DNA from: Micromonospora sp. NBC_01740
GTDB taxonomy: Bacteria > Actinomycetota > Actinomycetes > Mycobacteriales > Micromonosporaceae
Length of the DNA: 64,000 bases
Direction: 5' to 3'
NCBI RefSeq assembly: GCF_035920365.1
Contig: NZ_CP109150.1
Span: forward strand, 7,192,001 to 7,256,000
The notes below the pieces were generated by a model that worked only from the letters and a program-made list of their open reading frames with translations, was not told the DNA's origin and did not search any database. The position numbers and the translations under genes were made by a program. This document shows, piece by piece, positions 30,252 through 44,408 of this stretch. Numbering within the stretch: position 1 is the first letter of the stretch; every line of letters begins with the position of its first letter.

Positions 30252-30857
30252 GTGAAGATCTACGCCGATCGTTTCCCGACCGCCGTCCGACAGTTGATCA
30301 CCGACCTGCTCGTCGTCGCCTGGGTGTACGGCGCGATCCGTGGCGCGCTGTGGCTGCACGACCTGGTCCAGAAGCTCGCCGTACCCGGGCAGAAGCTGGA
30401 GGGGGCCGGCGGCGGCCTGGCCGACAACCTGGCCGACGCCGGCGGCAAGGTCGGCCGGGTGCCGCTGGTCGGTGACGAGCTGACCGCGCCGTTCGAGCGG
30501 GCCGCCACCGCCGCCCGCTCGCTGGCCGAGGCGGGGCGCGACCAGCAGGAACTGGTCGACCAGCTCGCCCTCGCGCTGGCCGTCGCCGTGCTGGTCTTCC
30601 CGCTCGGCCTGGTGCTCTTCGGCTGGCTGCCGCTACGGGTGCGCTGGATGCGCCGGGCCGGCTCGGCCGCGAAGCTGGCCGCCGCGCCCGCCGGCCGGGA
30701 CCTGCTCGCCCTGCGCGCGCTGGCCACCCAGCCGCTGGGGCGACTGACCCGGATCGCCCCCGACGTGGCCGAGTCGTGGCGGCGCGGCGACGACGCCACC
30801 GTCGACGCCCTCGCCGCCCTGGAACTACGCCACCTCGGCCTACGCCCCGGTCGCTGA
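30252..30857 (+). CDS. Two-helix membrane protein of unknown function
   Basis: A 201-residue protein. It starts VKIYADRFPTAVRQLITDLL and has one hydrophobic stretch near 17-38 and another at about 110-135 (LALALAVAVLVFPLGLVLFG). Between them is a small Gly/Ala-rich extracytoplasmic region. The cytoplasmic tail is Arg/Ala-rich and includes LLALRALATQPLGRLTRIAP. It resembles uncharacterised actinobacterial membrane proteins. A 7-bp inverted repeat (CGTGCCA at 30215, TGGCACG at 30236) lies just before the GTG start and may be an operator. Confidence 0.8.
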   Translation: MKIYADRFPTAVRQLITDLLVVAWVYGAIRGALWLHDLVQKLAVPGQKLEGAGGGLADNLADAGGKVGRVPLVGDELTAPFERAATAARSLAEAGRDQQELVDQLALALAVAVLVFPLGLVLFGWLPLRVRWMRRAGSAAKLAAAPAGRDLLALRALATQPLGRLTRIAPDVAESWRRGDDATVDALAALELRHLGLRPGR

Positions 30858-30922
30858 CCCCCTGCCTCACCTCCCCCACCCCACCCCGGCCCCGCCCGCC
30901 CGGCCCGGCCCGCCCGGCCCGG

Positions 30923-30993
30923 CGATCATGCAGTTATGGTGACCGGAACGGCCGCTTTAGCCCCTTTTGTCAGGCACCACAACTGCATGATCG
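30923..30993. repeat. 71-bp palindromic element (element A)
   Basis: The arms 30923-30941 and 30975-30993 are 19 bp long and match at 18 positions. The sequence begins CGATCATGCAGTT and ends AACTGCATGATCG. The centre is 33 bp and contains CGGAACG. C-rich sequence precedes and G-rich sequence follows, so outer pairing is also possible. It lies between convergent genes and matches element B at 43228-43298 in arm length, centre length and arm sequence. Confidence 0.9.
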
Positions 30994-31028
30994 ACGCCAG
31001 GGTGAGAGGGCGGGGCGGGGAGGGCTGG

Positions 31029-33128
31029 TCAGGAGGAGGGTGGGGGCGGGGGTGGGATGCGGCGGCGGGTGTCGGCGGCGGTGGACGGGCCGGGCGACCA
31101 AGGGGCCACCCAGGGGAGGTCGTCGGCGGGGGTGATCACGCCGTCCTCCAGGGCGGCGTAGCGCCCGGCCAGGATCCGCTTCGCGGCGGCCGTGTCGACG
31201 GAGTCGGTGTTGTCCCACAGGGCGGTGAAGAGCGCGTCGACGCGGACCCGGGCCTGCCGGCAGAACAGGTCGGCCAGCTCGACGTTCTCGGGGCGGGTGT
31301 CCCGCTCGGCGTAGGCGCGCACGCAGACCGCGGACATCGCGAACAGCTCCGCGCCGATGTCCACCACCCGGCCGAGGAACGCCTGCTTGCGCTCCATCTT
31401 GCCCTGCCAGCGGGACATCGCGTAGAACGTCGAGCGGGCCAGCTTGCGCGAGGCGCGCTCCACCTGCCGCAGGTGGCCGGCGAGCGGGCCGAACTCGGCG
31501 TACGCCGACGGGCGCTGTCCCCTGCCGACGGCGAGGGTCGGCAGCCACTTCGCGTAGAAGGCGCCGGCCCGCGCCCCGGCCTTCGCCTTGCGGCCGAGCC
31601 CGGCGTCCGGGTCGATGATGTCACCGGCGACGGACAGGTGCGCGTCGACCGCCTCCCGGGCGATGAGCAGGTGCATGATCTCGGTGGAGCCCTCGAAGAT
31701 GCGGTTGATCCGCAGGTCGCGCAGCAGTTGCTCGACGGCGGCCGGTCGCTCGCCCCGCGCGGCGAGGGAGTCGGCCGTCTCGTAGCCGCGACCGCCCCGG
31801 ATCTGCACCAGTTCGTCGGCGATCTTCCAGGCCATCTCACTGGCGTAGAGCTTGACCAGCGCCGCCTCGATCCGGATGTCGTTACGGTCGTCGTCGGCGA
31901 GCAGGCAGCAGAGGTCCAGCATGGTCTCCATGCCGTACGTCGTCGCGGCGATGAAGGACAGCTTCTGGGCCACCGCCTCGTGCTCGCCCACGGGCCGGCC
32001 CCACTGCACCCGGTCGACGGCCCACTCCCGGGCCACGTTCAGCGCCCACTTGCCGGCGCCGACACACATCGCCGGCAGCGACAGCCGCCCGGTGTTCAGG
32101 GTGGTCAGCGCGATCTTCAGGCCCTTGCCCTCGCCACCGATGACGTTCTCCTTCGGTACGAAGACGTCGTGGAAGCGGGTCAGGCTGTTCTCCAGGCCAC
32201 GCAGGCCGATGAAGGCGTTGCGCCGTTCGACCGTGATGCCCTCGGTGTCGCCCTCGACGACGAAGGCGGTGATCCCGCCGCGCCGCCCCTCGGCGGCGGG
32301 CACCCGGGCCATCACCACGAGCAGGGAGGCGACGGTGCCGTTGGTGGCCCACAGCTTCACGCCGTTGAGGCGGTAGCCGGTGCCGTCGGGCGTGGGCTCG
32401 GCGGTGGTGGCCAGTCGGGCCGGGTCGGAGCCGACGTCCGGCTCGGTGAGCAGGAACGCGGAGACCTCACCGGCGGCGAGCCGGGGCAGGAAGCGCTGCT
32501 TCTGCTCGGCGGTGCCGAACATCTTCAGCGGTTGCGGCACCCCGATCGACTGGTGCGCCGAGAGCAGCGCGCCGATCGCCGGGCTGACCGAGCCGGCCAG
32601 CATGAGCGCCCGGCAGTAGTGCAGGTTGCTGAGCCCGAGCCCGCCGTACGACCGGTCGATCTTCATGCCGAACGCGCCGAGCCGGGCCATTCCTTGGAAC
32701 ACCTCGTCCGGGATGGACGCGTCCCGCTCGATCGCGGCACCGTCCACGTCGGAGGTGAGGAATTCTCGGAACCGGCCGAGGAACTCGTCGGCGCGGGCGA
32801 CGTCCGCCGGGTCGGAGCGCGGCCAAGGGTTGATCAGGTCGAGCCGGAACCGGCCGAGGAAGAGTTCCTTGCCGAAGCTGGGACGATCCCAGGTGGACTC
32901 CCGGGCCGCCTCGGCGACCTGTCGGGCCTCCTTCTCGGAGACCTGACCGGCCTCGGTCGGCAGGGGCCCGGCCGCACCGGCCGCGGGCGGGGCGTCGGCG
33001 GCCGCAGGCGCATTGCCGGCGGTCGCGGGCGGGGTGTCGGCGGCGGCAGGCGGGGCGTCGGCCGACGGCGGCGGCTGGTCGGCGCCTGATCCGTCGGGCG
33101 CGGGTCGGCTGTTGTGTGTCGCGGTCAC
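31029..33128 (-). CDS. Acyl-CoA dehydrogenase family protein
   Basis: A flavoenzyme of 699 residues, longer than the 380-residue classic type. It oxidises acyl-CoA thioesters in beta-oxidation or a related pathway. An Ala/Pro-rich N-terminal tail (about 70 residues) precedes the core. Motifs are SYGGLGLSNLHYCRAL, AFLLTEPDVGSDPARL (FAD/substrate contact), RLNGVKLWATNG and QIRGGRGYETADSL. The C-terminal extension of about 150 residues is like that of the long FadE enzymes. The GTG at 33128 follows GAGGGGG. A 29-bp palindrome lies upstream. Confidence 0.93.
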   Translation of the reverse strand: MTATHNSRPAPDGSGADQPPPSADAPPAAADTPPATAGNAPAAADAPPAAGAAGPLPTEAGQVSEKEARQVAEAARESTWDRPSFGKELFLGRFRLDLINPWPRSDPADVARADEFLGRFREFLTSDVDGAAIERDASIPDEVFQGMARLGAFGMKIDRSYGGLGLSNLHYCRALMLAGSVSPAIGALLSAHQSIGVPQPLKMFGTAEQKQRFLPRLAAGEVSAFLLTEPDVGSDPARLATTAEPTPDGTGYRLNGVKLWATNGTVASLLVVMARVPAAEGRRGGITAFVVEGDTEGITVERRNAFIGLRGLENSLTRFHDVFVPKENVIGGEGKGLKIALTTLNTGRLSLPAMCVGAGKWALNVAREWAVDRVQWGRPVGEHEAVAQKLSFIAATTYGMETMLDLCCLLADDDRNDIRIEAALVKLYASEMAWKIADELVQIRGGRGYETADSLAARGERPAAVEQLLRDLRINRIFEGSTEIMHLLIAREAVDAHLSVAGDIIDPDAGLGRKAKAGARAGAFYAKWLPTLAVGRGQRPSAYAEFGPLAGHLRQVERASRKLARSTFYAMSRWQGKMERKQAFLGRVVDIGAELFAMSAVCVRAYAERDTRPENVELADLFCRQARVRVDALFTALWDNTDSVDTAAAKRILAGRYAALEDGVITPADDLPWVAPWSPGPSTAADTRRRIPPPPPPSS

Positions 33129-33182
33129 GGCGGCCCCCTCGAACCTCGGTCCGGATGCGTCAACGTGCTCGACGAACAGCAC

Positions 33183-33211
33183 GCTACCCCCGGGTGTTAC
33201 CCAGGGGTAGC
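33183..33211 (-). promoter_or_regulatory. 29-bp palindrome upstream of the acyl-CoA dehydrogenase gene
   Basis: GCTACCCC (33183-33190) pairs with GGGGTAGC (33204-33211), and GGGT/ACCC continues inside after one mismatch, leaving a GTT centre. It lies 55 bp before the start, just downstream of an AT-rich patch that could be a -10 region. It is either a repressor operator or the terminator of the DUF6328 gene. Confidence 0.55.
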
Positions 33212-33243
33212 GATTGGTAAATATCGAGCCGTGTCGACCTTCG

Positions 33244-33747
33244 TCAGTCGCTGAGGGACCGTGGCTCATTCTCGTCGTCGTCGTCGGTGTCGTCGTCGCC
33301 CCAGTTGCGGCGGGAGAACGGCAGGAACGCCCAGAAGGTGAGGAACCAGAGGCCGGTGAGGCCGCTGAGCACCAGGGCGATGCTCCGGTCCAGCACGAAG
33401 TCGGTGATCAGCAGCACCGCGCTGACCATCGAGATCAGCATGAAGGCGAGCCCGCCGCTGGCCATCCGGTGGGCGAACCGGACCAGCTCCGGCTTGCGGC
33501 CCTGCCGGAACAGCGCGCGGTGGAACGCCACCGGAGAGATGATCATCGCGGTGGCCGCGGCCGCGGCCAGCAACGCGACGATGTAGACGTCCTTCTGGAA
33601 GCCACTCGTACGGGTGAAGCCATTGCTGAACGGCAGGGTGAGCAGGAACGCGAAGAGGATCTGCACGCCGGTCTGGGCGACCCGAAGCTCCTGGAGCAGG
33701 TCGGCGAAGTTGCGCTGCCAGCGCTGCTTCTCGGTTTCCTTGGACAC
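33244..33747 (-). CDS. DUF6328-like four-helix membrane protein
   Basis: A 167-residue integral membrane protein. A cytoplasmic N terminus (RWQRNFADLLQELRVAQTGV) leads into four hydrophobic segments: ILFAFLLTLPF, IVALLAAAAATAMII, LAFMLISMVSAVLLI and IALVLSGLTGLWFLTFWAFL. The tail is very acidic (DDDTDDDDENE). It matches my recollection of the DUF6328 family; no function is known. The GTG start follows GGAGGTAGC. Confidence 0.83.
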   Translation of the reverse strand: MSKETEKQRWQRNFADLLQELRVAQTGVQILFAFLLTLPFSNGFTRTSGFQKDVYIVALLAAAAATAMIISPVAFHRALFRQGRKPELVRFAHRMASGGLAFMLISMVSAVLLITDFVLDRSIALVLSGLTGLWFLTFWAFLPFSRRNWGDDDTDDDDENEPRSLSD

Positions 33748-33900
33748 ACGCTACCTCCGGTCAGACGGTACTGCCGGCGGGGGCGGCCGGCGGCAGCATC
33801 GCTGATGCCCCACCCGTCGACGCGCGAAACCGACTCACGTCACTGTCTGACGCGCCGGTTCCGTATCGACCATGATGCGGCCGACCGTAGCCACAACCCG

Positions 33901-34665
33901 TCAGGAGCCGCGGCGGATCCGGCCCGCGTACCGGGCCTCGAGGGCGTTGTTGTGCTCGTCGCCCCCGGCGATGTTGGCCGACAGGTAGACCGGGGGCCGC
34001 TCCCCCGCCGCCAGCAGCCGCGCCACCACCTCGACGGTGATCTGCTGCGCCAGTAGCGCCGCGGTGATCGACGAGACCGCGCCGACCGCACCGCCCCCGG
34101 GCAGTGGCAGCGTCGCGTCGCCGTACGGGGCGCCGTTGTCGAGCACCACGTCGGCGAAGTCGGCGAGCTTGCGTCCCGACGGGTGGCGCGAGGTCATCTG
34201 CCCGGAGTGCTGCGCCGAGGTGATCGCGACCAGCCCGTGGCCCTTCTCCCTGACCAGCGACGCGAACTCCACCATGGCGCCGTTCACGCCGGAGTTGGAG
34301 GCGAGCACGAAGACGTCCCGGGGGCTGACGGGAGCCAGCTCGTAGAGACGGTGCGCCACCGACGGGTCGCGCTCCAGCAGCGGCCCGAGCACGTCGGCCG
34401 GGGCGCCACCGCGCAGCACCAGGTCCCGCAGGGCGATGCGGTTCGTCGGGACCAGCCCGCCGGCCCGCCCGGCGATCTCCATGGCCAGCGCCTCGGAGTG
34501 GCCGGTGCCGAACGCGTGGACCACGCCGTCGGCGCGTACCGCCTCGGCGATCAGGTCGGCGGCCCGCCCCACCGCCTCGCGCTGGCTCTCGGCGACCCGG
34601 TGCATCGTGTCGGTCACCACGGCCAGGAAGTCCTCGGCCTTCACCGTCGTGTCTGCTCGGTCCAT
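33901..34665 (-). CDS. SIS domain sugar-phosphate-binding protein (UPF0309-like)
   Basis: A 254-residue cytoplasmic protein with one SIS (sugar isomerase) domain. The phosphosugar-binding loop is HAFGTGHSEALAMEIAGRAG. A second serine-rich loop VFVLASNSGVNGAMVEFA and the segment AITSAQHSGQMTSRHPSG follow. The C-terminal part EHNNALEARYAGRI is typical of the UPF0309 family. Family members bind or isomerise phosphosugars. No sugar operon is adjacent, so the substrate is unclear. The ATG has GGAGGTACGAC in front. Confidence 0.88.
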   Translation of the reverse strand: MDRADTTVKAEDFLAVVTDTMHRVAESQREAVGRAADLIAEAVRADGVVHAFGTGHSEALAMEIAGRAGGLVPTNRIALRDLVLRGGAPADVLGPLLERDPSVAHRLYELAPVSPRDVFVLASNSGVNGAMVEFASLVREKGHGLVAITSAQHSGQMTSRHPSGRKLADFADVVLDNGAPYGDATLPLPGGGAVGAVSSITAALLAQQITVEVVARLLAAGERPPVYLSANIAGGDEHNNALEARYAGRIRRGS

Positions 34666-34721
34666 GTCGTACCTCCGTCAGGGGTGGGCCCGGCGTCCGC
34701 CGGCCGGTGTCGCGGGGAAGG

Positions 34722-35552
34722 TCAGACCGGGTCGTGCACCCGGGCCAGGATCGCCTCGGCCAGCGCGGCGGGCGCCTCGTCGGGGATCCAGTGGCTCACC
34801 CGGGGCAGCTCGACGAAGCGGTAGTCGGCGGTCACGTGCTCGGCGCACGCCTCGGCGGCGGTCCGGCCGATCGCGATGTCGCGACCGCTCCACACGTACG
34901 TGGTCGGCACCGCCACCGGCCCGGTGGCGGCCAGGTCCCGGCGGGACATCGCGCGGTACCAGTTCAGGGCGGCGGTCAGCGCGCCCGGCTCGCGCATCGG
35001 GTCCGCGTACGCGGCCACCCGCGCGTCGTCGCCGACCCCGTGCAGCATCCGGCGCAGCCCGGTCGCGCCCAGCACCAGCAGCGCCTTCTCCGCCGTGCCC
35101 GGCTTGCGGAACACCGTCATGTACGCCGAGCGCGCCTTCTGCCCCGCGTCCTCGGCCAGCGCCCACGCCATGGCGGCGGGGTGCGGCACGGAGACCGCGG
35201 TCAGCGTGCGGACCCGCTCGGGATGGTGGGCCGCGACGGCCCAGGCGACGACCGCGCCCCAGTCGTGCCCCACCAGGTGCGCCGCGTCGACGCCCAACGC
35301 GTCGAGTACGCCCACCGCGTCGGCGACCAGTTCCGGCAGCCGGTACGCCTCGACCGCCTCGGGCCGCGCGCCCGGCGAGTAGCCGCGCTGGTCCGGCGCG
35401 TACGTGCGCAGGCCCGCGGCGTGCAGCGCGGGCACCACGTCGTCGAACTCCCCGCCGTGCTGGGGGAAGCCGTGCAGCAGCAGGACGGGCGTGCCGCCCT
35501 CCGGTCCGCCGACACGGACGTCGAACGTGAACCCCCGGGCCTCGATCCGCAT
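34722..35552 (-). CDS. Alpha/beta hydrolase, epoxide-hydrolase-like
   Basis: A 276-residue soluble enzyme. The oxyanion motif is LLHGFPQHG. The nucleophile is D97 in VGHDWGA, an aspartate as in epoxide hydrolases and haloalkane dehalogenases, not a serine. The cap domain is helical, with WYRAMSRR. The acid is in VWSGRDIAIG and the catalytic histidine in RVSHWIPDE near the end. Two cap tyrosines expected for epoxide opening are plausible (YMTVFRK, WYRAM). The ATG at 35552 gives the usual length. Confidence 0.88.
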   Translation of the reverse strand: MRIEARGFTFDVRVGGPEGGTPVLLLHGFPQHGGEFDDVVPALHAAGLRTYAPDQRGYSPGARPEAVEAYRLPELVADAVGVLDALGVDAAHLVGHDWGAVVAWAVAAHHPERVRTLTAVSVPHPAAMAWALAEDAGQKARSAYMTVFRKPGTAEKALLVLGATGLRRMLHGVGDDARVAAYADPMREPGALTAALNWYRAMSRRDLAATGPVAVPTTYVWSGRDIAIGRTAAEACAEHVTADYRFVELPRVSHWIPDEAPAALAEAILARVHDPV

Positions 35553-35608
35553 GATCGTGAGCCTACCCAGCGCCGCACCTGGCCGCCCGGGACTGCCGGG
35601 CCCACCTG

Positions 35609-36415
35609 TCACTCGTACTGTTGCCGGGGGACGGGCACCTGCCGCCAGGACTCCACGTCCAGGTAGGGAATCTCGGCGTCGTTGACCGGGTCGCGGGCGA
35701 TGCGGTCGCTGTAGCGGCCCGTCACCTCGATCCAGGTGTCGTCGGCGAGCCCGTCGGGGGCCGCGCCGGTCAGGCCCAGCTTGACCGGCCGCCCGTCGGC
35801 GGCGCAGCAGGAGAGCACCATCCGGGCCAGCAGCGGCCGGCCGTCGGGGCCGGTGGTGACGAAGCCGGTCAGCTGGACCCGGCGCTCGCCGATCGAGGTG
35901 CCCCGGTCGAACAGGGCCCGGGAGGCGTAGTCGAGCACGGTCACCCGCACCGGGTCGCCGGCGGGCAGCGGCGGATAGTCGGACGGCTGCTGCCGGGTGG
36001 TGACGGCGGTGCCGGCCTGCCCGGCCGCGTACGAGCCCAGGGCCGGCGGGGCGACCAGCAGCAGGCCCAGCACGGGCAGGATCAGCAGCCAGCCGACCCG
36101 CGGCTCGTGGTGGCCGTGCCCGTCGTCACCGCCGTGCCCGTCGTAGCCGTCGCCGTGAGCCTCGGGGCCGGGTGTGCGCCGGGGCCGCCACCCACCGGCC
36201 GGGCCGTCGTGGTGGCCGGCGGGCGTGCGCCGCAGGAGCGGGCGCAGCTCGTAGAAGAGGGTCATGACCGCAGCGGCCACCAGCAGCAGGCCGGCGGCGA
36301 TCAGGAAGGGCCGCAGCCCCTCCTTGACGTAGCGCAGGTGCAGGTCGGTGAGGCTGGCCCGGACCACCGCGCCGCCGAGCAGCAGCAGGACGACGGCCTG
36401 CGCCTGCCGGTTCAC
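35609..36415 (-). CDS. TIGR03943/YcgQ-like membrane protein
   Basis: A 268-residue protein that partners a YraQ-type permease. It has two N-terminal helices (about 6-20 and 35-57) and a third near 115-140. The loop between the second and third is His/Gly/Asp-rich (HGDGYDGHGGDDGHGHHEP) and could bind metal. The extracytoplasmic C-terminal domain contains LSCCAADGRPVKLGL and IEVTGRYSDRIARDP, as in YcgQ-family proteins. The GTG at 36415 overlaps the stop of the permease gene by four bases. Confidence 0.88.
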   Translation of the reverse strand: MNRQAQAVVLLLLGGAVVRASLTDLHLRYVKEGLRPFLIAAGLLLVAAAVMTLFYELRPLLRRTPAGHHDGPAGGWRPRRTPGPEAHGDGYDGHGGDDGHGHHEPRVGWLLILPVLGLLLVAPPALGSYAAGQAGTAVTTRQQPSDYPPLPAGDPVRVTVLDYASRALFDRGTSIGERRVQLTGFVTTGPDGRPLLARMVLSCCAADGRPVKLGLTGAAPDGLADDTWIEVTGRYSDRIARDPVNDAEIPYLDVESWRQVPVPRQQYE

Positions 36416-37470
36416 AGCAGCACCGCCCCGGTCACGGCGGCCACCGCGACGGCCACCGCGAAGGTGGTCGGGGCGAACCGCAGCGCGAACCGCCGGCCGA
36501 AGACTCCGGCCTGCATCGAGATGAGCTTGAGGTCGACCATCGGCCCCACCACCAGGAAGACCAGTCGGGAGGTCAGCGAGAACTGCGACAGCGAGGCGGC
36601 GACGAAGGCGTCCGCCTCGGAGCAGAGGGAGAGCAGCACGGCGAGCGCGGCCAGCGCGAGCACCGACAGCACCGGCTCGTCGGCGAGGGTCTGCAACCAG
36701 CGCTCCGGCACCACGACGTTGATCGTGGCGGCAGCCGCCGCGCCGATCACCAGGAACCCGCCGGCGTGCGTGACGTCGTGCCGGACCGCCCCCCAGAACG
36801 CCCGCCCGCGCGGGCCGCCGTCCAGCTCCGGCCGGCGCGGCAGCCGGATCCAGTCGGCCCGGCCGAGGCGCAGCCACAGCCAGCCCATGACCATCGCCAC
36901 GAGCAGGCTCGCGACGGCCCGGCCGAGGACCATCGCCGGGTCGTCGGGGAAGGCCACGGCGGTGGCGGTCAGCACGATCGGGTTGATCGCCGGGGCGGCG
37001 AGCAGGAACGCCAACGCGGCGGCCGGGGTGACCCCGCGCCGGATCAGCGACCCGGCGATCGGCACCGCCCCGCACTCGCAGCCGGGCAGCACCACGCCGG
37101 CCGCGCTGGCCACCGGCACCGCGAGCGCGGGGTGACGCGGCAGCGCCCGGGCCCAGAACGACCGGGGCACGAAGACGGCGATCACCGCGGAGAGCAGCAC
37201 CCCGAAGACCAGGAACGGCACCGCCTGCACCATGACCGAGACGAAGACGGTGGTCCAGGTCTGCAAGCGGGGCGCGGAGAGGGCCCGGGCGAGCGGCTCG
37301 CGGAAGACGACCAGCAGGATCAGCAGGCCGGCGAGGACCTCCACCGACCCGACCCGCCGGTCCGGGCCGCGGGGCGCCGCCGGCTTCTCCTCGCGTACGC
37401 CCGGGGCGGCCACGCCCACCGCGCCCGGGTGCGACCCGTCCGGCGCGCGGCGGTCAGCCTCGGATGTCAC
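36412..37470 (-). CDS. YraQ/DUF318 family permease
   Basis: A 352-residue permease with about eight to ten helices after a hydrophilic tail of about 45 residues. The characteristic motif is VVLPGCECGAVPIAGSL, with two cysteines in a helix-breaking loop. ALAFLLAAPAINPIVL, LLSLCSEADAFVAASLSQF and FLVVGPMVDLKLISM follow. The GTG at 37470 removes an unconserved upstream stretch. The substrate is unproven; the cysteines and the partner's His-rich loop suggest a metal or a thiol-reactive solute. It is divergent from the thiamine operon. Confidence 0.9.
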   Translation of the reverse strand: MTSEADRRAPDGSHPGAVGVAAPGVREEKPAAPRGPDRRVGSVEVLAGLLILLVVFREPLARALSAPRLQTWTTVFVSVMVQAVPFLVFGVLLSAVIAVFVPRSFWARALPRHPALAVPVASAAGVVLPGCECGAVPIAGSLIRRGVTPAAALAFLLAAPAINPIVLTATAVAFPDDPAMVLGRAVASLLVAMVMGWLWLRLGRADWIRLPRRPELDGGPRGRAFWGAVRHDVTHAGGFLVIGAAAAATINVVVPERWLQTLADEPVLSVLALAALAVLLSLCSEADAFVAASLSQFSLTSRLVFLVVGPMVDLKLISMQAGVFGRRFALRFAPTTFAVAVAVAAVTGAVLL

Positions 37471-37561
37471 GTACGTGTCCCTCTGCCGGATTCCCAGTGG
37501 CCGCCCGAGAGTACCGGGCCGGAATCGACGCCGTCGATCGACTGCGCTGGTGAGCTGCGGA

Positions 37562-37600
37562 AAGATCACTTTGCCCGATGATCTTCAAAGGTGTTAGCGT
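37562..37600. promoter_or_regulatory. Promoter of the thiamine operon with overlapping inverted repeat
   Basis: TTGCCC (37571-37576) and TAGCGT (37595-37600) are a plausible -35/-10 pair with an 18-bp spacer, leading into the riboswitch. AAGATCA (37562-37568) and TGATCTT (37579-37585) are perfect arms that bracket the -35. This may be an operator affecting both divergent units. The region is less GC-rich than its surroundings. Confidence 0.55.
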
Positions 37601-37617
37601 CGGGCCACAACTTCACA

Positions 37618-37705
<88 letters not shown>

Positions 37706-37792
37706 GGTCGACCTCCAGCCGCGTCGACGTCCGGCACGTTCCGGGCGCGGCGTGCGTCTTCTCCTGGTTCTCGTTAGGGACTGGGAGCAATC

Positions 37793-38386
37793 ATGCGAGA
37801 CAACAACACCGCCACCCGGTGGCGTACCGTCGATGTCGTCGTCGCGGCCGTGATCGCGGTGGCCTTCGGCGTCATCTTCTGGGCCTGGGGCCTGCTGTGG
37901 CGGGCCGTCGACCCGGCGTTCGCGTTCTTCCCCGCCAGCCAGGCGATCATGTACGGCGTGTGGCTGGTCCCGGCCGTCCTCGGCGGTCTGGTGATCCGCA
38001 AGCCCGGCGCGGCGCTCTTCTGCGAGGCGGTGGCGGCGACGGTCTCCGCGCTGCTCGGCTCGGAGTGGGGCGGCGTCACCATCGTCCAGGGCCTGATCCA
38101 GGGGCTCGGCGCCGAGTTGGCCTTCGCCGCGTTCCGGTACCGCTCGTTCCGGCTGCCCACCGCGCTGATCGCGGGCGCGCTGACCGGCCTCGGCGCGGCC
38201 CTGTTCGACTTCTTCGTCTGGAACAGCGAGTACGCCCTGGGCAGCTACCGCATCCCGTACGCCCTCCTCACCATCGTCAGCGCCACGATCGTCGCGGGTG
38301 CCGGCGGCTGGGCCCTGACCCGCGCCCTGGCCACCACGGGCGCCCTGGACCGCTTCCCCGCCGCCCGAGACCGCACCCCAATCTGA
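37793..38386 (+). CDS. ykoE: ECF transporter S component, thiamine/HMP-specific YkoE
   Basis: The substrate-binding membrane subunit of an ECF importer, 197 residues with five to six helices. It starts MRDNNTATRWRTVDVVVAAV and contains AFGVIFWAWGLLW, QAIMYGVWLVPAVLGGLVIRKPGAALFCEAVAA (split over two helices) and EWGGVTIVQGLIQGLGAELAF. These are hallmarks of the YkoE family, which takes up thiamine or hydroxymethylpyrimidine. The TPP riboswitch directly upstream supports this. GGGAG precedes the ATG. Confidence 0.95.
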   Translation: MRDNNTATRWRTVDVVVAAVIAVAFGVIFWAWGLLWRAVDPAFAFFPASQAIMYGVWLVPAVLGGLVIRKPGAALFCEAVAATVSALLGSEWGGVTIVQGLIQGLGAELAFAAFRYRSFRLPTALIAGALTGLGAALFDFFVWNSEYALGSYRIPYALLTIVSATIVAGAGGWALTRALATTGALDRFPAARDRTPI

Positions 38387-38448
38387 CCCACCCCCTCTCC
38401 CCACCCACCCCCCTCTCCCCACCCACCCACCCACCCCCACGACCCGGC

Positions 38449-38513
38449 GCGTTGATCATGAAGTTGTTGCCACGACACGCCGTGCCGAACGACAACAACC
38501 TCATGATCAACGC
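38449..38513. repeat. 65-bp palindromic element (element C)
   Basis: The arms 38449-38469 and 38493-38513 are 21 bp long with one mismatch. They contain GTTGATCATGA at the outside and GTTGTTG at the inside. The 23-bp centre has CACGCCGTG. It shares the TGATCATG core and AGTTGT pattern with elements A and B but has different length. A 60-bp C-rich run precedes it and a G-rich run follows. It lies between ykoE and ykoD. Confidence 0.88.
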
Positions 38514-38543
38514 CCGCGGGCGGGCAGGAAGGAAGGGGGCGGC

Positions 38544-39959
38544 GTGGGGGCGGTGACGTTGCGGGGGTTCGGGTGGCGGCATGCCGGACGGCGGGCCTGG
38601 GCCGTGCGCGGGGTGGACCTGCGCGTCGAGGTTGGCGAGCGGGTGCTGCTGCTGGGGCCCTCCGGGGCCGGCAAGAGCACGCTGCTCGCCGCGCTGGCCG
38701 GGCTGCTGCCCGAGGACTCGGGCGAGCAGGAGGGCACCGTCGAGATCGACGGGCTCGACCCTCGCAAGGGCCGGGAGCGGGTCGGCATCGTCTTTCAGGA
38801 CCCGCAGACCCAGCTCGTGATGGCCCGCAGCGGCGACGACGTGGCGTTCGGGTTGGAGAACCGCGGCACCCCCGCCGGGGAGATCTGGCCCCGCGTCGAC
38901 GAGGCGCTGGCTCGGGTCGGTTTCCCGTACCCCCGGGACCGCCACACGGCCGCGCTCTCCGGCGGCGAGCAGCAGCGGCTCGCCCTGGCCGGGGTGCTGG
39001 CCCTGCGCCCCGGCCTGCTGCTGCTCGACGAGCCGACCGCCAACCTCGACCCGACCGGCGCGGCGCTGATCCGGGCGGCGGTGGCCGGCGCGCTCGACGC
39101 CGACACCACGCTGATCCTGGTCGAACACCGCGTCGCCGAGTCGTTGCCCCTGGTCGACCGGGTGGTCGTGCTCGAACCCGGCGGCGGCGTCCGCGCCGAC
39201 GGCACGCCCGAGGCCGTCTTCGGTACGCACGGCGACGCGCTCGCCGACGAGGGCGTCTGGGTGCCCGGCCGCCCGGTACCGCCCCGCCACGCGACCGCGC
39301 CGCCCGGCGACGTGTTGCTCACCGCCGACCGGCTCGGCCTGCCGCCCCGGCTGGCCCCCGTCGACCTGGCGGTACGCGCCGGCGAGGCGCTCGCCGTCGT
39401 CGGGCCCAACGGGGCCGGCAAGTCGACCCTCGCCCTGCTGCTGGGCGGCCTGCTCAAGCCCGGGGCCGGCCGGATCGCGGCGACGACGGCACTGGCCGGT
39501 GGCGACGCCCGCACGCCCCCGCACCGCTGGCGCGCCCCGGCACTGGCCCGCCGGATCGGCTCGGTCTTCCAGGACCCGGAGCACCAGTTCGTCACCAACA
39601 CCGTCTTCGACGAGCTGGCGCTCGGCCCGCGCCGCACCGGCCAGCCCGAGACGGCGGTCCGGACCACCGTCGACACCCTGCTGTCCCGGCTGCGGTTGAC
39701 GAAACTCGCCGCCGCCAACCCGTACACCCTCTCCGGCGGGGAGGCGCGGCGGCTGAGCGTGGCGACCGCCCTGGCCACCGCGCCCCGCCTGCTCGTCTGC
39801 GACGAACCGACCTTCGGCCAGGACCGGCGGACCTGGCTGGAGCTGGTGGACCTCTTCGCCGAGCTGCGCGACGCCGGGCACGGCCTGGTCGCCGTCACCC
39901 ACGACCCGGAGTTCGTCGCCGCCCTGGCAGATCGCCGCCTCACCCTGGAGCGCCCGTGA
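38544..39959 (+). CDS. ykoD: ECF transporter double ATPase YkoD
   Basis: A 471-residue protein with two fused ABC ATPase domains, energising the thiamine/HMP importer. Domain 1 has GPSGAGKST near residue 42, LSGGEQQRLALAGVLAL and LLLDEPTANLDP. Domain 2 has GPNGAGKST near residue 288, LSGGEARRLSVATALA and LLVCDEPTFGQD. The Q-loop segments FQDPQTQLV and FQDPEHQFV are typical of ECF A components. The start GTG lies behind element C, without a strong ribosome-binding site. Its stop begins a tandem duplication leading to ykoC. Confidence 0.94.
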   Translation: MGAVTLRGFGWRHAGRRAWAVRGVDLRVEVGERVLLLGPSGAGKSTLLAALAGLLPEDSGEQEGTVEIDGLDPRKGRERVGIVFQDPQTQLVMARSGDDVAFGLENRGTPAGEIWPRVDEALARVGFPYPRDRHTAALSGGEQQRLALAGVLALRPGLLLLDEPTANLDPTGAALIRAAVAGALDADTTLILVEHRVAESLPLVDRVVVLEPGGGVRADGTPEAVFGTHGDALADEGVWVPGRPVPPRHATAPPGDVLLTADRLGLPPRLAPVDLAVRAGEALAVVGPNGAGKSTLALLLGGLLKPGAGRIAATTALAGGDARTPPHRWRAPALARRIGSVFQDPEHQFVTNTVFDELALGPRRTGQPETAVRTTVDTLLSRLRLTKLAAANPYTLSGGEARRLSVATALATAPRLLVCDEPTFGQDRRTWLELVDLFAELRDAGHGLVAVTHDPEFVAALADRRLTLERP

Positions 39960-40083
39960 CCAGCGACCGAACCGCCGCACCGGTCACCCACCCGGACCGT
40001 CGCCCCGCCCTGGGGGCGGGCGTGACCAGCCCGAACGCCGCACCGGTCACCCACCCGGATCGCCGCCGCGCCCTGGGGCGGGC
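39956..40083 (+). repeat. Tandem duplication between ykoD and ykoC
   Basis: Units 39956-40021 (66 bp) and 40022-40083 (62 bp) both begin GTGACCAGC and share CGCCGCACCGGTCACCCACC. Both end in a GCCC...GGGCGGGC hairpin, and ykoC then begins GTGATCAG, like a third unit start. The unit carries the ykoD stop and a GTG that mimics the ykoC start. It looks like a recent duplication of the gene junction. Confidence 0.85.
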
Positions 40084-40884
40084 GTGATCAGTTTCGAGCC
40101 GGTCGCCGCGCCGGAGGCGTTGCTGGCCCGGCGCAACCCGGTGGCCAAGCTCGCCGCGGCGCTGGTGTTCTCGTTCATCCTGATCGCCACCCTGGACCCG
40201 GTGGCCCCGGCCATCGCGATCGCCGTCGAGTTGGCCCTGCTGCCGCTGTTCGGGGTCCGTTTCCGGGTGTTGGCGCGGCGGGCCTGGCCGCTGCTCGTCG
40301 GCGCGGTCGGCGTGGTGGTGACGCTGGTGCTCTTCGCCGCCGAGCGCTCCGGCCGGGTCCTGGTCGAGGCCGGCCCGGTGGTGGTCACCTCCGGGGTGCT
40401 GCTCACCGCGCTCGGCCTGGTGCTGCGCATGTTCGCGGTGGCGCTGCCCGGCGTGATCGTCTTCGCCACCACCGACCCGACCGACCTGGCGGACGCGCTG
40501 ATCCAGAACGCGAAGGCACCGGCCCGGTTCGCCATCGGGGCGCTGGCCGCGTTCCGGCTCGTGCCGCTGCTGGGGCAGGAGTGGCAGATGATCTCCATGG
40601 CGCGTCGCGCCCGGGGGGTCGAGGCCGGCCGCAACCCGCTGGCGAAACTTCGGCTGTTCGTGTCGACGGCCTTCGCGCTGCTCGTCGGGGCGATCCGCCG
40701 GGGCACCCGGCTGGCCGTGGCGATGGACGCCCGGGGCTTCGACGCCGGGGTCCCGCGCACCGTCGCCCGGCGACAGCGCTTCGTCGCCGCCGACGGCCTG
40801 CTGATCGCCGGCGCGGCGGTGCTCGCCGGGGCCGCGCTGACCGTCAGCGTGCTGCTCGGCACCTTCCGCCCGCTGATCGGCTGA
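40084..40884 (+). CDS. ykoC: ECF transporter transmembrane (T) component YkoC
   Basis: The 266-residue T component that couples the ATPases to the S component. It has about five helices. The coupling motifs MARRARGVEAGRNP and AMDARGFDAGVPRT are the two A-R-G type signatures that contact the ATPases. The N terminus is FEPVAAPEALLARRNPVAKL. It is the last gene of the TPP-regulated operon. The GTG start at 40084 lies at the end of the duplicated junction, with only a weak GGGGCGGG site. Confidence 0.93.
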   Translation: MISFEPVAAPEALLARRNPVAKLAAALVFSFILIATLDPVAPAIAIAVELALLPLFGVRFRVLARRAWPLLVGAVGVVVTLVLFAAERSGRVLVEAGPVVVTSGVLLTALGLVLRMFAVALPGVIVFATTDPTDLADALIQNAKAPARFAIGALAAFRLVPLLGQEWQMISMARRARGVEAGRNPLAKLRLFVSTAFALLVGAIRRGTRLAVAMDARGFDAGVPRTVARRQRFVAADGLLIAGAAVLAGAALTVSVLLGTFRPLIG

Positions 40885-41002
40885 CGCCGCCCGTTGATCG
40901 GCGGGCGGGCCCGGGTGGAGGCGCCGACCGGGCGCGCAGCGGGCTGGTCGTCCGGCGAGCGGGCCGGGCGGAGGCGCATGCCCGGGTGGTCGGGCGCGGG
41001 CG

Positions 41003-41041
41003 GGCCGGGTGGAGTCGCCGGTGACGACGCTCCACCCGGCC
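41003..41041. terminator. Bidirectional terminator between ykoC and the 78-residue ORF
   Basis: A perfect 12-bp stem, GGCCGGGTGGAG (41003-41014) with CTCCACCCGGCC (41030-41041), has a 15-base loop. It lies between convergent genes. A second 7-bp hairpin, CCGCCCG/CGGGCGG, follows ykoC directly at about 40888-40911. Confidence 0.75.
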
Positions 41042-41048
41042 GGCACCG

Positions 41049-41285
41049 TCAGCTGCGCCGGAAGGCGTACCGGCGGGCCTGCCCGGCCTTCTGGCCGCGC
41101 AGCGGGCCGGAGCGGCCGGCGCCGGAGACCGGCGGACCGGCCTTCGGCGCCGTCGGTCGGTCGACCGGCAGCGCCGGCACGACCGGCGCGACCGCCACCT
41201 CGTCGAGGTTGACGGGCGTCAGGTCCGCGACGGACGGCGTGGGGACGGTGGTACGGGACTTCTTCGGGTTGCGCCTGGCGGGCAT
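41049..41285 (-). CDS. Small basic hypothetical protein
   Basis: A 78-residue ORF starting MPARRNPKKSRTTVPTPS and ending GQKAGQARRYAFRRS. It is highly basic at both ends, with a Pro/Val-rich centre. There are no membrane helices or cysteines. The GGAGG seven bases before the ATG and the strong terminator after the stop support a real gene. The composition suggests a nucleic-acid- or ribosome-associated protein, which is only inference. I do not recognise a family. Confidence 0.62.
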   Translation of the reverse strand: MPARRNPKKSRTTVPTPSVADLTPVNLDEVAVAPVVPALPVDRPTAPKAGPPVSGAGRSGPLRGQKAGQARRYAFRRS

Positions 41286-41750
41286 CCGGTGCCTCCTCGG
41301 TCTGCGGGCCCTGCCGCACCGGAACGACGTCCGGTGACCGGGGCCCGCCTCGTTCGGCGACCGTCGCGCGACGGTCGGGCGGGATCGGGACAGCTGCCCG
41401 GGATCGGCCACGAGGAGCACCGCCGTTCGACGGCAGGTGCGGAATGCGGACGCCCGGGAGCACGCGGACCCGCGGCGATGCGGCGGCGGGTCGGCTCGGA
41501 AGTGGGGCGTCAGTTGCGCATGCCCACACGCTAGCCGCCCGACCGGTCGCGCGCACCCGAATTACCGGCGGGGATCCGCAGCCGGTCGGTAGGGCCCCGC
41601 GGAGGCCGCCCGGCGCCGGATCGTCGGCCGGCCCCCGCGCCCTTCAGGACGACAGCCACGTGGCGGTGACGGGGTGCCCGACACGCTCTCCGGGCCGCCC
41701 CGCAGGCGATACGGTCGCACCGGCGGGTGTCGACGGCGGAGGGTGGACGG
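41286..41750. other. Divergent spacer before gnd
   Basis: These 465 bp separate the 78-residue ORF from gnd. Open frames exist on both strands but lack ribosome-binding sites and motifs. I see no tRNA-like or riboswitch-like fold. It presumably contains promoters for both genes. Near 41515 the minus strand has ATGCGCAACTGA, a minimal ORF of no clear meaning. Confidence 0.5.
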
Positions 41751-43193
41751 ATGGCCGGGCGGGCGACGGCACGGATCGGCGTGACCGGGCTGGCGGTGAT
41801 GGGCCGGAACCTGGCCCGCAACCTGGCCCGCAACGGTTTCGCCGTGGCGGTGCACAACCGGTCGCCGGAGCGCACCCGCAGCCTCGTCGCGGAGCACGGG
41901 GACGAGGGGACGTTCCTGCCCGCCGAGTCGATGGCCGACTTCGTCGCGTCGCTGGAGCGGCCCCGGGCGGTCATCGTGATGGTCAAGGCGGGCGGCCCCA
42001 CCGACGCCGTGGTCGACGAACTGGTCCCGCTGCTCGACGCGGGCGACATCGTCGTGGACTGCGGCAACGCGCACTTCGCCGACACCCGCCGGCGGGAGGA
42101 GGCGCTACGGGCCCACGGCCTGCACTTCGTCGGCACCGGCGTCTCCGGTGGCGAGGAGGGCGCCCTGCGCGGCCCGAGCATCATGCCGGGCGGATCCGCG
42201 GAGTCGTACCGCACGCTCGGGCCGATCTTCGAGCGGATCGCCGCCCAGGTGGACGGGGTGCCGTGCTGCCGGCACATCGGGCCGGACGGCGCCGGGCACT
42301 TCGTCAAGATGGTGCACAACGGCATCGAGTACGCCGACATGCAGCTCATCGCGGAGGCGTACGACCTGCTGCGGGCCGGACTGGGCGCGCAGCCGGCGGA
42401 GATCGCGGAAATCTTCCGTGGCTGGAACTCCGGCGAGCTGGAGTCCTTCCTGATCGAGATCACCGCCGACGTGCTGGCGCACACCGACGCGGCCACCGGG
42501 CGGGCGTTCGTGGACGTCGTGCTGGACCGCGCCGAGCAGAAGGGCACCGGCCGCTGGACGGTGCAGAGCGCGCTCGACCTGGGCATCCCCATCACCGGCA
42601 TCGCCGAGGCGACCTTCGCCCGCTCGCTCTCCGGGCACGCCGACCAGCGCGAGGCGGCCCGGCGGGCGTTTCCGGACGCGGACGCGACCTGGCGGGTCGA
42701 GGACCCCGACGGCTTCGTCGAGGACGTCCGCCGCGCCCTGCTCGCCTCGAAGATCGTCGCGTACGCGCAGGGCTTCGACCACATCCGCGCCGGCTCCCGC
42801 GAGTACGACTGGGGCATCGACCTGGGCGGCACCGCGACGATCTGGCGGGGCGGCTGCATCATCCGGGCCCGCTTCCTCGACCGCATCCGCCAGGCGTACG
42901 ACGAGCGGCCCGACCTGCCGACGCTGCTGGTGGCGCCGTGGTTCGCGGACACCGTGAACGACGGCGTGCCGAGCTGGCGGCGGGTGGTGGCCGACGCGGC
43001 GCGGGCGGGCGTGCCGGCTCCGGCGTTCGCCTCGTCGCTGGCGTACTTCGACGCGCTGCGCGCCCAGCGGCTGCCGGCCGCCCTGATCCAGGCGCTGCGG
43101 GACAACTTCGGGGCGCACACCTACCAGCGCGTGGACCACGAGGGCACCTTCCACACCCGCTGGCCCACCGACCGCACCGAAACCAAAACCTGA
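41751..43193 (+). CDS. gnd: 6-phosphogluconate dehydrogenase, NADP-dependent, decarboxylating
   Basis: Oxidises 6-phosphogluconate to ribulose 5-phosphate in the pentose phosphate pathway, giving NADPH. It has 480 residues from the ATG at 41751, which follows GGAGGG. The nucleotide-binding motif is GVTGLAVMGRNLARN. VDCGNAHFADTRRR, GTGVSGGEEGALRGPSIMPGG (split here by family alignments) and the catalytic HFVKMVHNGIEYADMQ are all present. The C-terminal tail HEGTFHTRWP is the dimer-swapped substrate contact. The length fits the long GndA form. Element B lies 35 bp after the stop. Confidence 0.96.
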   Translation: MAGRATARIGVTGLAVMGRNLARNLARNGFAVAVHNRSPERTRSLVAEHGDEGTFLPAESMADFVASLERPRAVIVMVKAGGPTDAVVDELVPLLDAGDIVVDCGNAHFADTRRREEALRAHGLHFVGTGVSGGEEGALRGPSIMPGGSAESYRTLGPIFERIAAQVDGVPCCRHIGPDGAGHFVKMVHNGIEYADMQLIAEAYDLLRAGLGAQPAEIAEIFRGWNSGELESFLIEITADVLAHTDAATGRAFVDVVLDRAEQKGTGRWTVQSALDLGIPITGIAEATFARSLSGHADQREAARRAFPDADATWRVEDPDGFVEDVRRALLASKIVAYAQGFDHIRAGSREYDWGIDLGGTATIWRGGCIIRARFLDRIRQAYDERPDLPTLLVAPWFADTVNDGVPSWRRVVADAARAGVPAPAFASSLAYFDALRAQRLPAALIQALRDNFGAHTYQRVDHEGTFHTRWPTDRTETKT

Positions 43194-43227
43194 CCCCCAC
43201 CCAAACCCAAACCCCCGACCCGCGAGC

Positions 43228-43298
43228 CGATCATGCACTTCTGGTGGTCGGAACGCCCCGGTGTGGGGCTTTCGCGGGGCACCACGACTGCATGATCG
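43228..43298. repeat. 71-bp palindromic element (element B)
   Basis: The arms 43228-43246 and 43280-43298 match at 16 of 19 positions, starting CGATCATGCA and ending TGCATGATCG. The centre is 33 bp with CGGAACG and a GCCCC/GGGGC stem. An outer 11-bp pair, CCCCCGACCCG before and CGGGTCGGGGG after, extends the fold. Size and arm sequence match element A. It lies between convergent genes. Confidence 0.9.
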
Positions 43299-43342
43299 AC
43301 GAACGGGTCGGGGGTGGGGTCAGGTCACGACTGGGTTTTGGG

Positions 43343-43528
43343 TCAGAAGAAGCGGCGGCGCTTCGCCTTCTGGGGGCGGAGCATGTCGGCGCCCTTGGTG
43401 AGCAGGCGGCTCACCCCGGTCGGGCCGCGGCGGGCCTCCAGCGTGTGGCTGAGCCGGCGCGCGCCCGCCGCCGCCAACGGCACGGCGACGGCCATCATCG
43501 CCCACTGGGCAATACGCTTCTGGATCAT
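43343..43528 (-). CDS. Small basic hypothetical protein
   Basis: A 61-residue ORF, MIQKRIAQWAMMAVAVPLAA at the start and KAKRRRFF at the end. A short hydrophobic segment (about 8-22) is followed by a basic tail. GGAGGTGAACCCAC precedes the ATG. It converges with gnd across element B. It could be a single-helix membrane peptide with a cytoplasmic basic tail. I do not recognise a family. Confidence 0.65.
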   Translation of the reverse strand: MIQKRIAQWAMMAVAVPLAAAGARRLSHTLEARRGPTGVSRLLTKGADMLRPQKAKRRRFF

Positions 43529-43592: not shown

Positions 43593-44408
43593 TCAGGCGG
43601 GCGGCGGGGCGACCGGGTTGGGCAGCGCGCCGCCGAAGCGACGGTCCCGCTGCGCGTACAGCTCGCAGGCGTACCAGAGGTGGCGGCGGTCGAAGTCGGG
43701 CCAGAGCGTGTCGAGGAAGATCAGCTCGGCGTACGCGGTCTGCCAGAGCAGGAAGTTCGAGATCCGCTCCTCGCCGGAGGGACGCAGAAACAGGTCCACC
43801 TCGGGAATCTCCGGGTGGTAGAGGTACTTCGCGACGGTCTTCTCGTTGACCTTCCCGGGGTCCAGCCGGCCCGCCGCCACGTCGCGGGCGATGGCGGCGG
43901 CGGCATCGGCGATCTCGGCCTGACCGCCGTAGTTGACGCAGAACTGGAGGGTCAGCGTCGAGTTGCCCCGGGACATCTCCTCCGCCGTCTGCAACTCGGA
44001 GATGACGCTCTTCCAGAGCCGGCCGGCCCGGCCGGACCAGACCACCCGCACCCCCAGGTCGACCAGCTGGTCACGGCGGCGGCGGATGACGTCGCGGTTG
44101 AAGCCCATCAGGAACCGGACCTCGTCCGGCGAGCGCCGCCAGTTCTCGGTGGAGAAGGCGTACGCCGACAGGTAGGGGATGCCCAGCTCGATGGCGCCCT
44201 CGACCGTGTCGAAGAGGGAGAACTCCCCCGCCTCGTGGCCCTTGGTGCGGGGCAGCCCGCGATCCTTGGCCCACCGGCCGTTGCCGTCCATCACCACGGC
44301 GACGTGCTTCGGCACCGCGTCGGCGGGCAGCGCCGGCGGCCGGGCGCCCGACGGGTGCGGAGTCGGCGGCACCGGCTCGCGACGGCCGGCCCTCATCGAT
44401 CGGATCAC
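43593..44408 (-). CDS. uppS: Isoprenyl transferase (undecaprenyl diphosphate synthase family)
   Basis: A cis-prenyltransferase that makes the polyprenyl diphosphate carrier for cell-wall precursors, 271 residues. D41 in [10 protein letters not shown] binds the diphosphate and magnesium. [45 protein letters not shown] and [20 protein letters not shown] follow. The GTG at 44408 overlaps the recO stop and has GGGGGAG in front, so it is preferred to the ATG at 44396. The recO-uppS order matches mycobacteria. Confidence 0.96.

Follow-up and report, generated by a model that had tools for sequence, protein, structure and literature searches.

REPIN-like 71-bp inverted repeats of Micromonospora as candidate bidirectional hairpins at convergent gene ends

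Elements A and B are two 71-bp inverted repeats in a 64,000-nt stretch (the window) of the genome of Micromonospora sp. NBC_01740 (G000; 7,317,348 bp), and both are copies of a repeat family termed F71. The family comes in two lengths and in distinct arm dialects, has been inherited vertically between G000 and its relative G102, is in excess at convergent gene ends, and displays stem covariation at one site. A and B are read as old Micromonospora repeats, resembling the paired repetitive extragenic palindromic (REP) sequences called REPINs, that have been kept at 3' ends as hairpins with a putative function in bidirectional termination or capping; this reading is given about an even chance of being right. 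The best-supported role, an inferred one, is to form a hairpin at the 3' ends of convergent genes that works in both directions, for either termination or 3'-end protection.

When transcribed from either side, the arms would pair, downstream of C-rich sequence, into a hairpin of at most 19 bp, and this hairpin would end or cap the mRNAs of both converging genes; it may act as a bidirectional terminator without a U tract, possibly assisted by Rho, or as a block to exonucleases. Copies elsewhere, for example in divergent gaps, would be tolerated and decaying, and carriage as the passenger of a miniature inverted-repeat transposable element (MITE), as seen in other species, may be one route of spread. 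The copies of the family in the window are as follows:

30923-30993, no strand assigned: F71 element A, 71-bp inverted repeat with 19-bp arms (18/19 paired) and a 33-bp centre
43228-43298, no strand assigned: F71 element B, 71-bp inverted repeat with 19-bp arms (16/19 paired) and a 33-bp centre
38453-38509, no strand assigned: F57 element of the 57-bp class with type i arms TGATCATGAAGTTGTTG (16/17 paired), between two codirectional genes downstream of a riboswitch, presumably ykoE and ykoD

The F71 family in the source genome

The original prediction described A and B as identical in total length, arm length and centre length, which holds at these positions, and its count of 18 Watson-Crick pairs in the arms of A is likewise correct; B, with 16 of 19, is the more mismatched of the two. 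The elements are identical at 53 of 71 positions. The motif CGGAACG, noted at the outset as shared, does begin at position 22 of both, but it is missing from the consensus of 31 copies and is no family feature. Covariance model R1 scores A at E 5e-18 and B at E 8.6e-17. Predicted RNA folding energies are -33.3 (+) and -41.0 (-) kcal/mol for A and -39.0 and -39.4 kcal/mol for B, with z values between -4.6 and -8.1 for both elements on either strand. Neither A nor B is followed, on either strand, by the T run expected of a U-tailed intrinsic terminator. At the Rfam gathering score a thiamine pyrophosphate (TPP) riboswitch is the sole match in the window; A, B and the F57 copy are unmatched.

The proposed search of the whole genome did reveal further copies (36 F71 places). 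With gaps of 35-65 permitted between them, the two exact ends occur as a pair 24 times in G000 (22 of exactly 71 bp, one of 70 and one of 72) and the reversed-pattern control not once, which together with the fold z values bears out the claim that the repeats are not chance. A looser pattern gives 56 matches in two classes, with 55 and ~69 bp between the GATC ends, or 57 and 71 bp once the outer bases are included; a pattern of GATCWWG ends with lengths of 46-76 allowed gives 64 matches (control 0), and among the 50 of these that were listed 48 measure 55 or 68-70 bp, the two off-class matches being of 52 and 64 bp, the last with unpaired arms and probably due to chance. A covariance model built from 31 copies identifies 36 distinct F71 places, of which 34 measure 70-72 bp and the others 68 and 69, plus 7 of the 57-bp class; since its first pass scored only 150 of 10,775 candidates, this search may have overlooked decayed copies. 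All 59 half-ends found in G000 with 0-1 mismatch lie within complete pairs, with no solo REP-like remnants among them, and an autonomous element bounded by F71 ends 1-2 kb apart was sought among the same half-sites and rejected. The proposal of a structured repeat family under some constraint is thus supported by the genome copies, the near-fixed lengths and the stem covariation.

The ends of the family are two conserved, inverted YGATCWWG motifs around a variable centre. All 31 aligned copies end CGATCATG...CATGATCG, these ends being fixed by the search patterns, and none of the 31 carries a GTAG or CGTC tag at its ends. In oriented copies the centre has the consensus CCCCGCRAAAG by one arm and CGCCC by the other, and the remainder is near random. 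From one genome to another the two arms mostly change together, giving genome-specific dialects: GATCATGGAG...CTCCATGATC predominates in G012, G024 and G008 (the G008 list being inflated by one MITE), GATCTTGGAG does so in G019 (3 copies) and G021 (4 copies), and GATCATGCAG in G000 and G007; hybrid elements with unlike arms are also present. Among the G000 copies most arm changes affect one side only, with 294 Watson-Crick cells as compared to 292.1 +/- 2.4 when the right arms are shuffled. An extension of the stem into the flanks was rejected, as their self-complementarity is 10.7 vs 10.1 +/- 0.47 with swapped partners.

Gene context and flanking composition

A and B both lie between convergent genes, as predicted (A between gene ends at 30857(+) and 31029(-), B between 43193(+) and 43343(-)), and the suggested comparison of copies with gene ends extends this to the family. 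Of 36 F71 loci 31 were assessed for context, together with seven 57-bp loci: 17 of the 30 that could be classified are convergent, 7 codirectional and 6 divergent, with 1 unclear, while the 57-bp class has two convergent and five codirectional loci. Gaps of 40-500 bp were surveyed in one genomic region, across 80 relatives' loci and the window, and 115 of the 960 are convergent. Strong hairpins of any sequence fill 55/115 convergent, 84/683 codirectional and 0/162 divergent gaps of this survey, compared to 0, 2 and 0 after dinucleotide shuffling, and from these counts hairpins as a class mark 3' ends. A role in termination or RNA processing, as first suggested, is plausible and fits the position of the copies.

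A and B are each preceded by a genuine C-rich tract and followed by a genuine G-rich one. Over 40 bp before and after F71 the C/G skew is 0.45/0.46 at convergent, 0.34/0.44 at codirectional and 0.52/0.48 at divergent sites (n=6), and it fades over 120-160 bp. At 36-76 bp from the middle of hairpin-free gaps the corresponding values are 0.04/0.04 (codirectional, 137), 0.11/0.01 (convergent, 15) and 0.00/-0.07 (divergent, 81); gaps with a strong hairpin display 0.41/0.31 (codirectional, 17) and 0.16/0.19 (convergent, 10). The switch from C to G follows the element and not gene direction. The skew was also considered as a direction-bound terminator signal (a Rho utilization, or rut, site), which was rejected since divergent sites are skewed as strongly as the others.

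Distribution and inheritance

F71 is present in 19/25 genomes of the same genus (0 to 72 matches, both strands counted) and in 0/16 genomes from other genera of the order; the search model was built on G000 arms and applied at E <= 1e-8, so that other arm dialects may be undercounted. Among 121 genomes the nearest relative of G000 found is G102 (98% at a 200-aa probe), and 19 of its 22 F71-like places (E <= 1e-4) were fetched for comparison. Eighteen of these pair one-to-one with F71 loci of G000 over >1.4 kb. The 19th, L255, falls on the G000 locus of L256, matching it at 86% over 991 bp; no new F71 place was seen among the 19, and the matching of 18 indicates vertical inheritance with no jumping seen. 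The partners cover 10/17 convergent, 5/7 codirectional and 2/6 divergent loci, plus the unclear one. Counterparts of A are L240 in G102 and L075 in Micromonospora sp. C31; those of B are L244 and, again, L075.

At seven stem positions both partners differ between G000 and G102, and five of these positions still pair in G102; in 1/18 pairs the centre is inverted in place (L246 vs L032). At the divergent site L008 decayed copies are found in G102 and G041, and among 22 loci scanned (8 more, on the other strand, were left out) only the G000 copy is intact. Comparison of this site with six other genomes displayed no clean junction or target duplication, and a clean insertion with target duplication was not seen in M. 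trifolii either.

The orthologous ykoE-ykoD gap

The gap that holds the F57 copy was compared in 80 related loci and the window (81 in all). An intact GATC-ended element directly follows ykoE in 52/81 loci, with core lengths of 55 bp (29), 54 (21), 42 (1) and 56 (1), such that 50/52 are of 54 or 55 bp. For the 29 elements of 55 bp, analysed against 500 shuffles, 97.4% of stem cells are paired vs 85.1% shuffled, 62 cells are changed on both sides vs 20.1, and stem covariation is 0.375 vs 0.150, none of the 500 shuffles being as high in any of the three; slid controls reach <=0.085.

The elements fall into three arm types (two elements assigned by hand) with one odd. On the ykoE tree the types require 18 changes, where the least possible is 3 and the shuffled mean 19.7 (as low in 36/200). 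Taken singly, type i is clustered (4 changes vs 5.8, a count this low in 5/500), while type ii (14 vs 17.0, 44/500) and type iii (13 vs 13.5, 232/500) hardly are. Overall, the type of hairpin hardly tracks the ykoE tree. M. saelicesensis (L107) and M. trifolii (L108) have ykoE genes 96.3% identical, yet carry different element types in similar flanks; judged by eye, the change in the M. trifolii flanks seems to fall no more than ~10 bp from the element. Also by eye, the gap holds an unrelated GC palindrome in M. radicis and M. zingiberis and a left-arm-like remnant in Salinispora loci, with none in Actinoplanes loci.

Weighing the proposed function

Several observations weigh against a role in ending or capping transcripts. 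The element lacks a U tract and its loop is of 33 nt; 6/30 F71 copies lie between divergent genes, where no annotated neighbour could be ended, and the F57 copy of the window separates two codirectional genes that follow a single riboswitch. A terminator role alone would not account for arms conserved in sequence, and these arms together with the divergent copies leave room for a DNA-binding role. Within G000 there is no arm covariation (the 294 vs 292.1 +/- 2.4 Watson-Crick cells given above). In the ykoE-ykoD stem neither the count of doubly changed pairs (7 vs 6.1, 182/500 shuffles) nor that of further pair types (20 vs 17.6, 44/500) is exceptional, and kinship alone, without structure, can outdo shuffles in such an analysis.

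The comparison with G102 is subject to similar reservations, as 13/31 G000 loci are without a fetched partner. Across the 18 pairs the differing positions are 60/673 in arms (8.9%), 145/588 in centres (24.7%) and 674/3114 in aligned flanks (21.6%), where constraint on the arms is overstated because both copy sets were found by their arms. Length is not rigid, with 6/18 G102 copies changed (four of 70, one of 72 and one of 68 bp). Mean arm departures from consensus are 1.7 in G000 and 3.5 in G102; by context they are 2.5 in G102 for the 10 convergent pairs, 5.4 for the 5 codirectional and 4 for the 2 divergent, although the means of the same copies in G000 are already 1.1, 2.4 and 2.5, respectively. 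Much of the difference comes from one codirectional pair, L007 (11 departures, mostly a lost arm end). These small numbers suggest better preservation of F71 at convergent ends.

Competing explanations

The original prediction also raised a REP-like mobile element with a REP-associated tyrosine transposase (RAYT) as partner. An active REP or REPIN element mobilised by such a Y1 transposase would agree with the architecture described in the text of PMC3116915 (a hairpin of fixed length with conserved inverted ends around a variable spacer) and with the patchy copy number across the 19/25 genomes, one of which, the F71-rich G002, carries one full-length Y1 transposase. This enzyme, however, lies beside a 400-aa tnpB-like open reading frame (ORF; recognised by eye), as in IS200/605, and the single match to PF01797 in G000, a truncated IS200/605-type TnpA at 92570-92782 of contig C1 (L031), adjoins a 382-aa tnpB-like ORF, also recognised by eye. 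One match each was found in G006, G009, G016 and G020, of which G009, G016 and G020 have no F71 in the distribution search, and none in G001, G007, G008, G012, G019, G021, G024, G041 and G102, of which G007, G008, G012 and G024 are F71-rich. None of the six Y1 loci has an F71-like GATCWWGNNNTT end, and the family lacks a GTAG or CGTC tag as well as solo ends with 0-1 mismatch. The RAYT partner is thus not borne out, and given the Y1 distribution, the tnpB association and the 18/19 paired places in G102, present-day mobility in this lineage is unsupported; the REPIN architecture stands, while mobilisation by a RAYT is considered very improbable.

Paired inverted half-sites at fixed spacing for a dimeric DNA-binding protein, such as a nucleoid factor or a gyrase-like site, would account for lengths that cluster at 57 and 71 bp, for the occurrence of complete pairs only, for genome-specific dialects with uncompensated arm changes within a genome, and for the excess between convergent genes, where supercoils accumulate. 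The ykoE-ykoD stem covariation speaks against such sites, though symmetric change of a site would look alike, as do the unrelated GC-rich hairpins that fill the same gaps in other species, the 6/18 G102 copies of changed length and the lack of a candidate protein; the idea is judged somewhat unlikely. Neutral relics of an extinct mobile element, in which template-switch correction of the palindrome keeps the arms alike and flips the centre, would fit the decay at L008 in G102 and G041, the one inverted centre, the changed lengths, and the five of seven doubly changed stem positions that still pair. Relics would not be expected in excess at convergent ends or in a ykoE-ykoD gap that stays filled in most loci, and correction within a palindrome cannot explain arm sequence common to separate loci, which makes this account unlikely. 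The 18 type changes on the ykoE tree, the M. trifolii flank change and the inverted centre would also fit an exchange system, in which hairpins with YGATCWWG ends persist at certain 3' ends while their type is swapped and their centre flipped by a recombination or transposition enzyme other than Y1; this is considered quite unlikely.

MITEs carry the family in other species. In G008, from which 20 stretches were fetched, 16/17 aligned F72 copies lie inside a MITE (L169-L185) of ~208 bp with 16-bp inverted ends CAACACCGTTGCGTTA, mostly inserted into another palindromic repeat, CAAGATCGTGCTCGATCC...GGATCGAGCACGATCTTG; its 10-bp flanks match at >=8/10 positions in 12/15 copies with both ends found. 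Recent transposition of F71 itself in G008 was rejected, the near-identical F72 copies being a burst of the MITE that carries them. In G024 5/20 fetched stretches match the right part of this MITE next to F71, and 6/20 have a second hairpin, CGATCTTGC..., 14-25 bp from F71. The MITE as a source of F71 in G000 was rejected as well, since neither its left nor its right part matched in the G000 loci examined.

Relation to known systems

The REPINs of Pseudomonas fluorescens SBW25, as far as the text of PMC3116915 describes them, share with F71 conserved inverted ends, a less conserved spacer, a hairpin, extragenic location and compensatory changes; for GI REPINs 71 bp separate the first bases of the two 16-mers, and spacer length matters. 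Unlike REPINs, F71 has no RAYT found, no GTAG tag and no solo ends with 0-1 mismatch, and it occurs in 36 copies at places common to near relatives, in classes of 57 and 71 bp whose ends read YGATCWWG. CGTC-tagged REPs are also palindromic, mostly between convergent or codirectional genes and seemingly without a dedicated transposase, but have stems of 8-9 bp, loops of 4-5 bp and the CGTC tag (text of PMC3733652); Micromonospora, Streptomyces and "actinobacteri-" do not occur in the main text of that paper. Paired DNA uptake sequence terminators of Neisseria and Pasteurellaceae likewise form gene-end hairpins from inverted motif pairs; these motifs, in the account of PMC1852404, are of 9-11 nt, generally number at least 1,000 per genome and have T-rich tails, in contrast to F71, whose arms (0-1 mismatch) occur in complete pairs only and which has no T tail. 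The uptake pairs may be regarded as a functional analogy.

According to the text of PMC8269248, 353 of the 1,427 3' ends mapped in Streptomyces clavuligerus have a strong stem-loop and lack a U tract; such ends are likened there to I-shaped terminators. F71 resembles these ends in its strong U-tract-less stem-loop and GC-rich actinobacterial host, and differs from them in that, as described there, they have short loops and form no repeat family of conserved arms and fixed length; C/G enrichment in that species, in the same source, belongs to the U-rich class of 3' ends. A survey of stem-loop families covers Mycobacterium and Corynebacterium (text of PMC2267715). No published description of F71 repeats was found in searches on Micromonospora or Micromonosporaceae repeats and actinobacterial REP/RAYT, most subscription papers being outside their scope and F57 having no separate search. 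If the proposed role is true, a REPIN design of conserved ends, near-fixed length and free centre is possible in an actinobacterial genus and in the absence of a RAYT, and the 3'-end hairpins of Micromonospora come from a few interchangeable repeat families; F71 supplies testable candidate bidirectional terminators for the genus.

Neighbouring features and sites A and B in relatives

Genes were called with a codon-usage caller trained on the window, and ten window proteins were checked against Pfam, with ABC_cobalt, ABC_tran and CbiQ matched by the riboswitch-linked genes. The features around the three elements are:

30858-30922, +: C-rich tract preceding A
30994-31028, +: G-rich tract following A
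43194-43227, +: C-rich tract preceding B
43299-43342, +: G-rich tract following B
30252-30857, +: 201-aa ORF, convergent neighbour of A, no Pfam match, conserved in relatives
31029-33182, -: acyl-CoA dehydrogenase-like gene, convergent neighbour of A
41751-43193, +: gnd (6-phosphogluconate dehydrogenase), convergent neighbour of B
43343-43528, -: small ORF ahead of uppS, convergent neighbour of B, conserved in relatives
43593-44315, -: uppS
37614-37719, +: TPP riboswitch upstream of ykoE, context of the window's F57 copy
37793-38386: ykoE, behind the TPP riboswitch, context of the F57 copy
38613-39959: ykoD-like gene, behind the TPP riboswitch, context of the F57 copy
40084-40884: cbiQ-like gene, behind the TPP riboswitch, context of the F57 copy

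The gaps orthologous to A and B hold F71 in few loci (e.g. L075 at both, L076 at B). Many relatives carry other hairpins at these sites, of the families TGATACCTCAGAGGCAT, GGCATCTCGCGGTATCC and CGATCTTGCAGTT or as single GC-rich stems, and the gnd gap of L076 holds F71 and a GC hairpin together. At site A in L081, L104, L110, L117 and L145 another recurrent 3'-end hairpin is present, GGGGCCCC...GCGTTAA...GGGGCCC. In the M. saelicesensis group (L107, L108, L112, L113, L114, L121) the 201-aa gene is followed by an insert that is missing from L106, L092 and L096; a CGCTGAGGTC/CGTTAAGGTC-like repeat flanks this insert, which holds mostly different hairpins in different species. Elsewhere in the window (35609-37419, -) an ArsP_1 permease gene overlaps a DUF1980 gene by 4 bp, and is unmatched in many related loci.

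Hairpin repeats probably cause breaks in draft assemblies. The contig ends <=180 nt after the ykoE stop in 14/80 loci, and the hairpin behind ykoE may be what breaks them:

Loci with a contig end after ykoE: L086, L093, L097, L098, L100, L109, L112, L113, L114, L119, L127, L128, L142, L148

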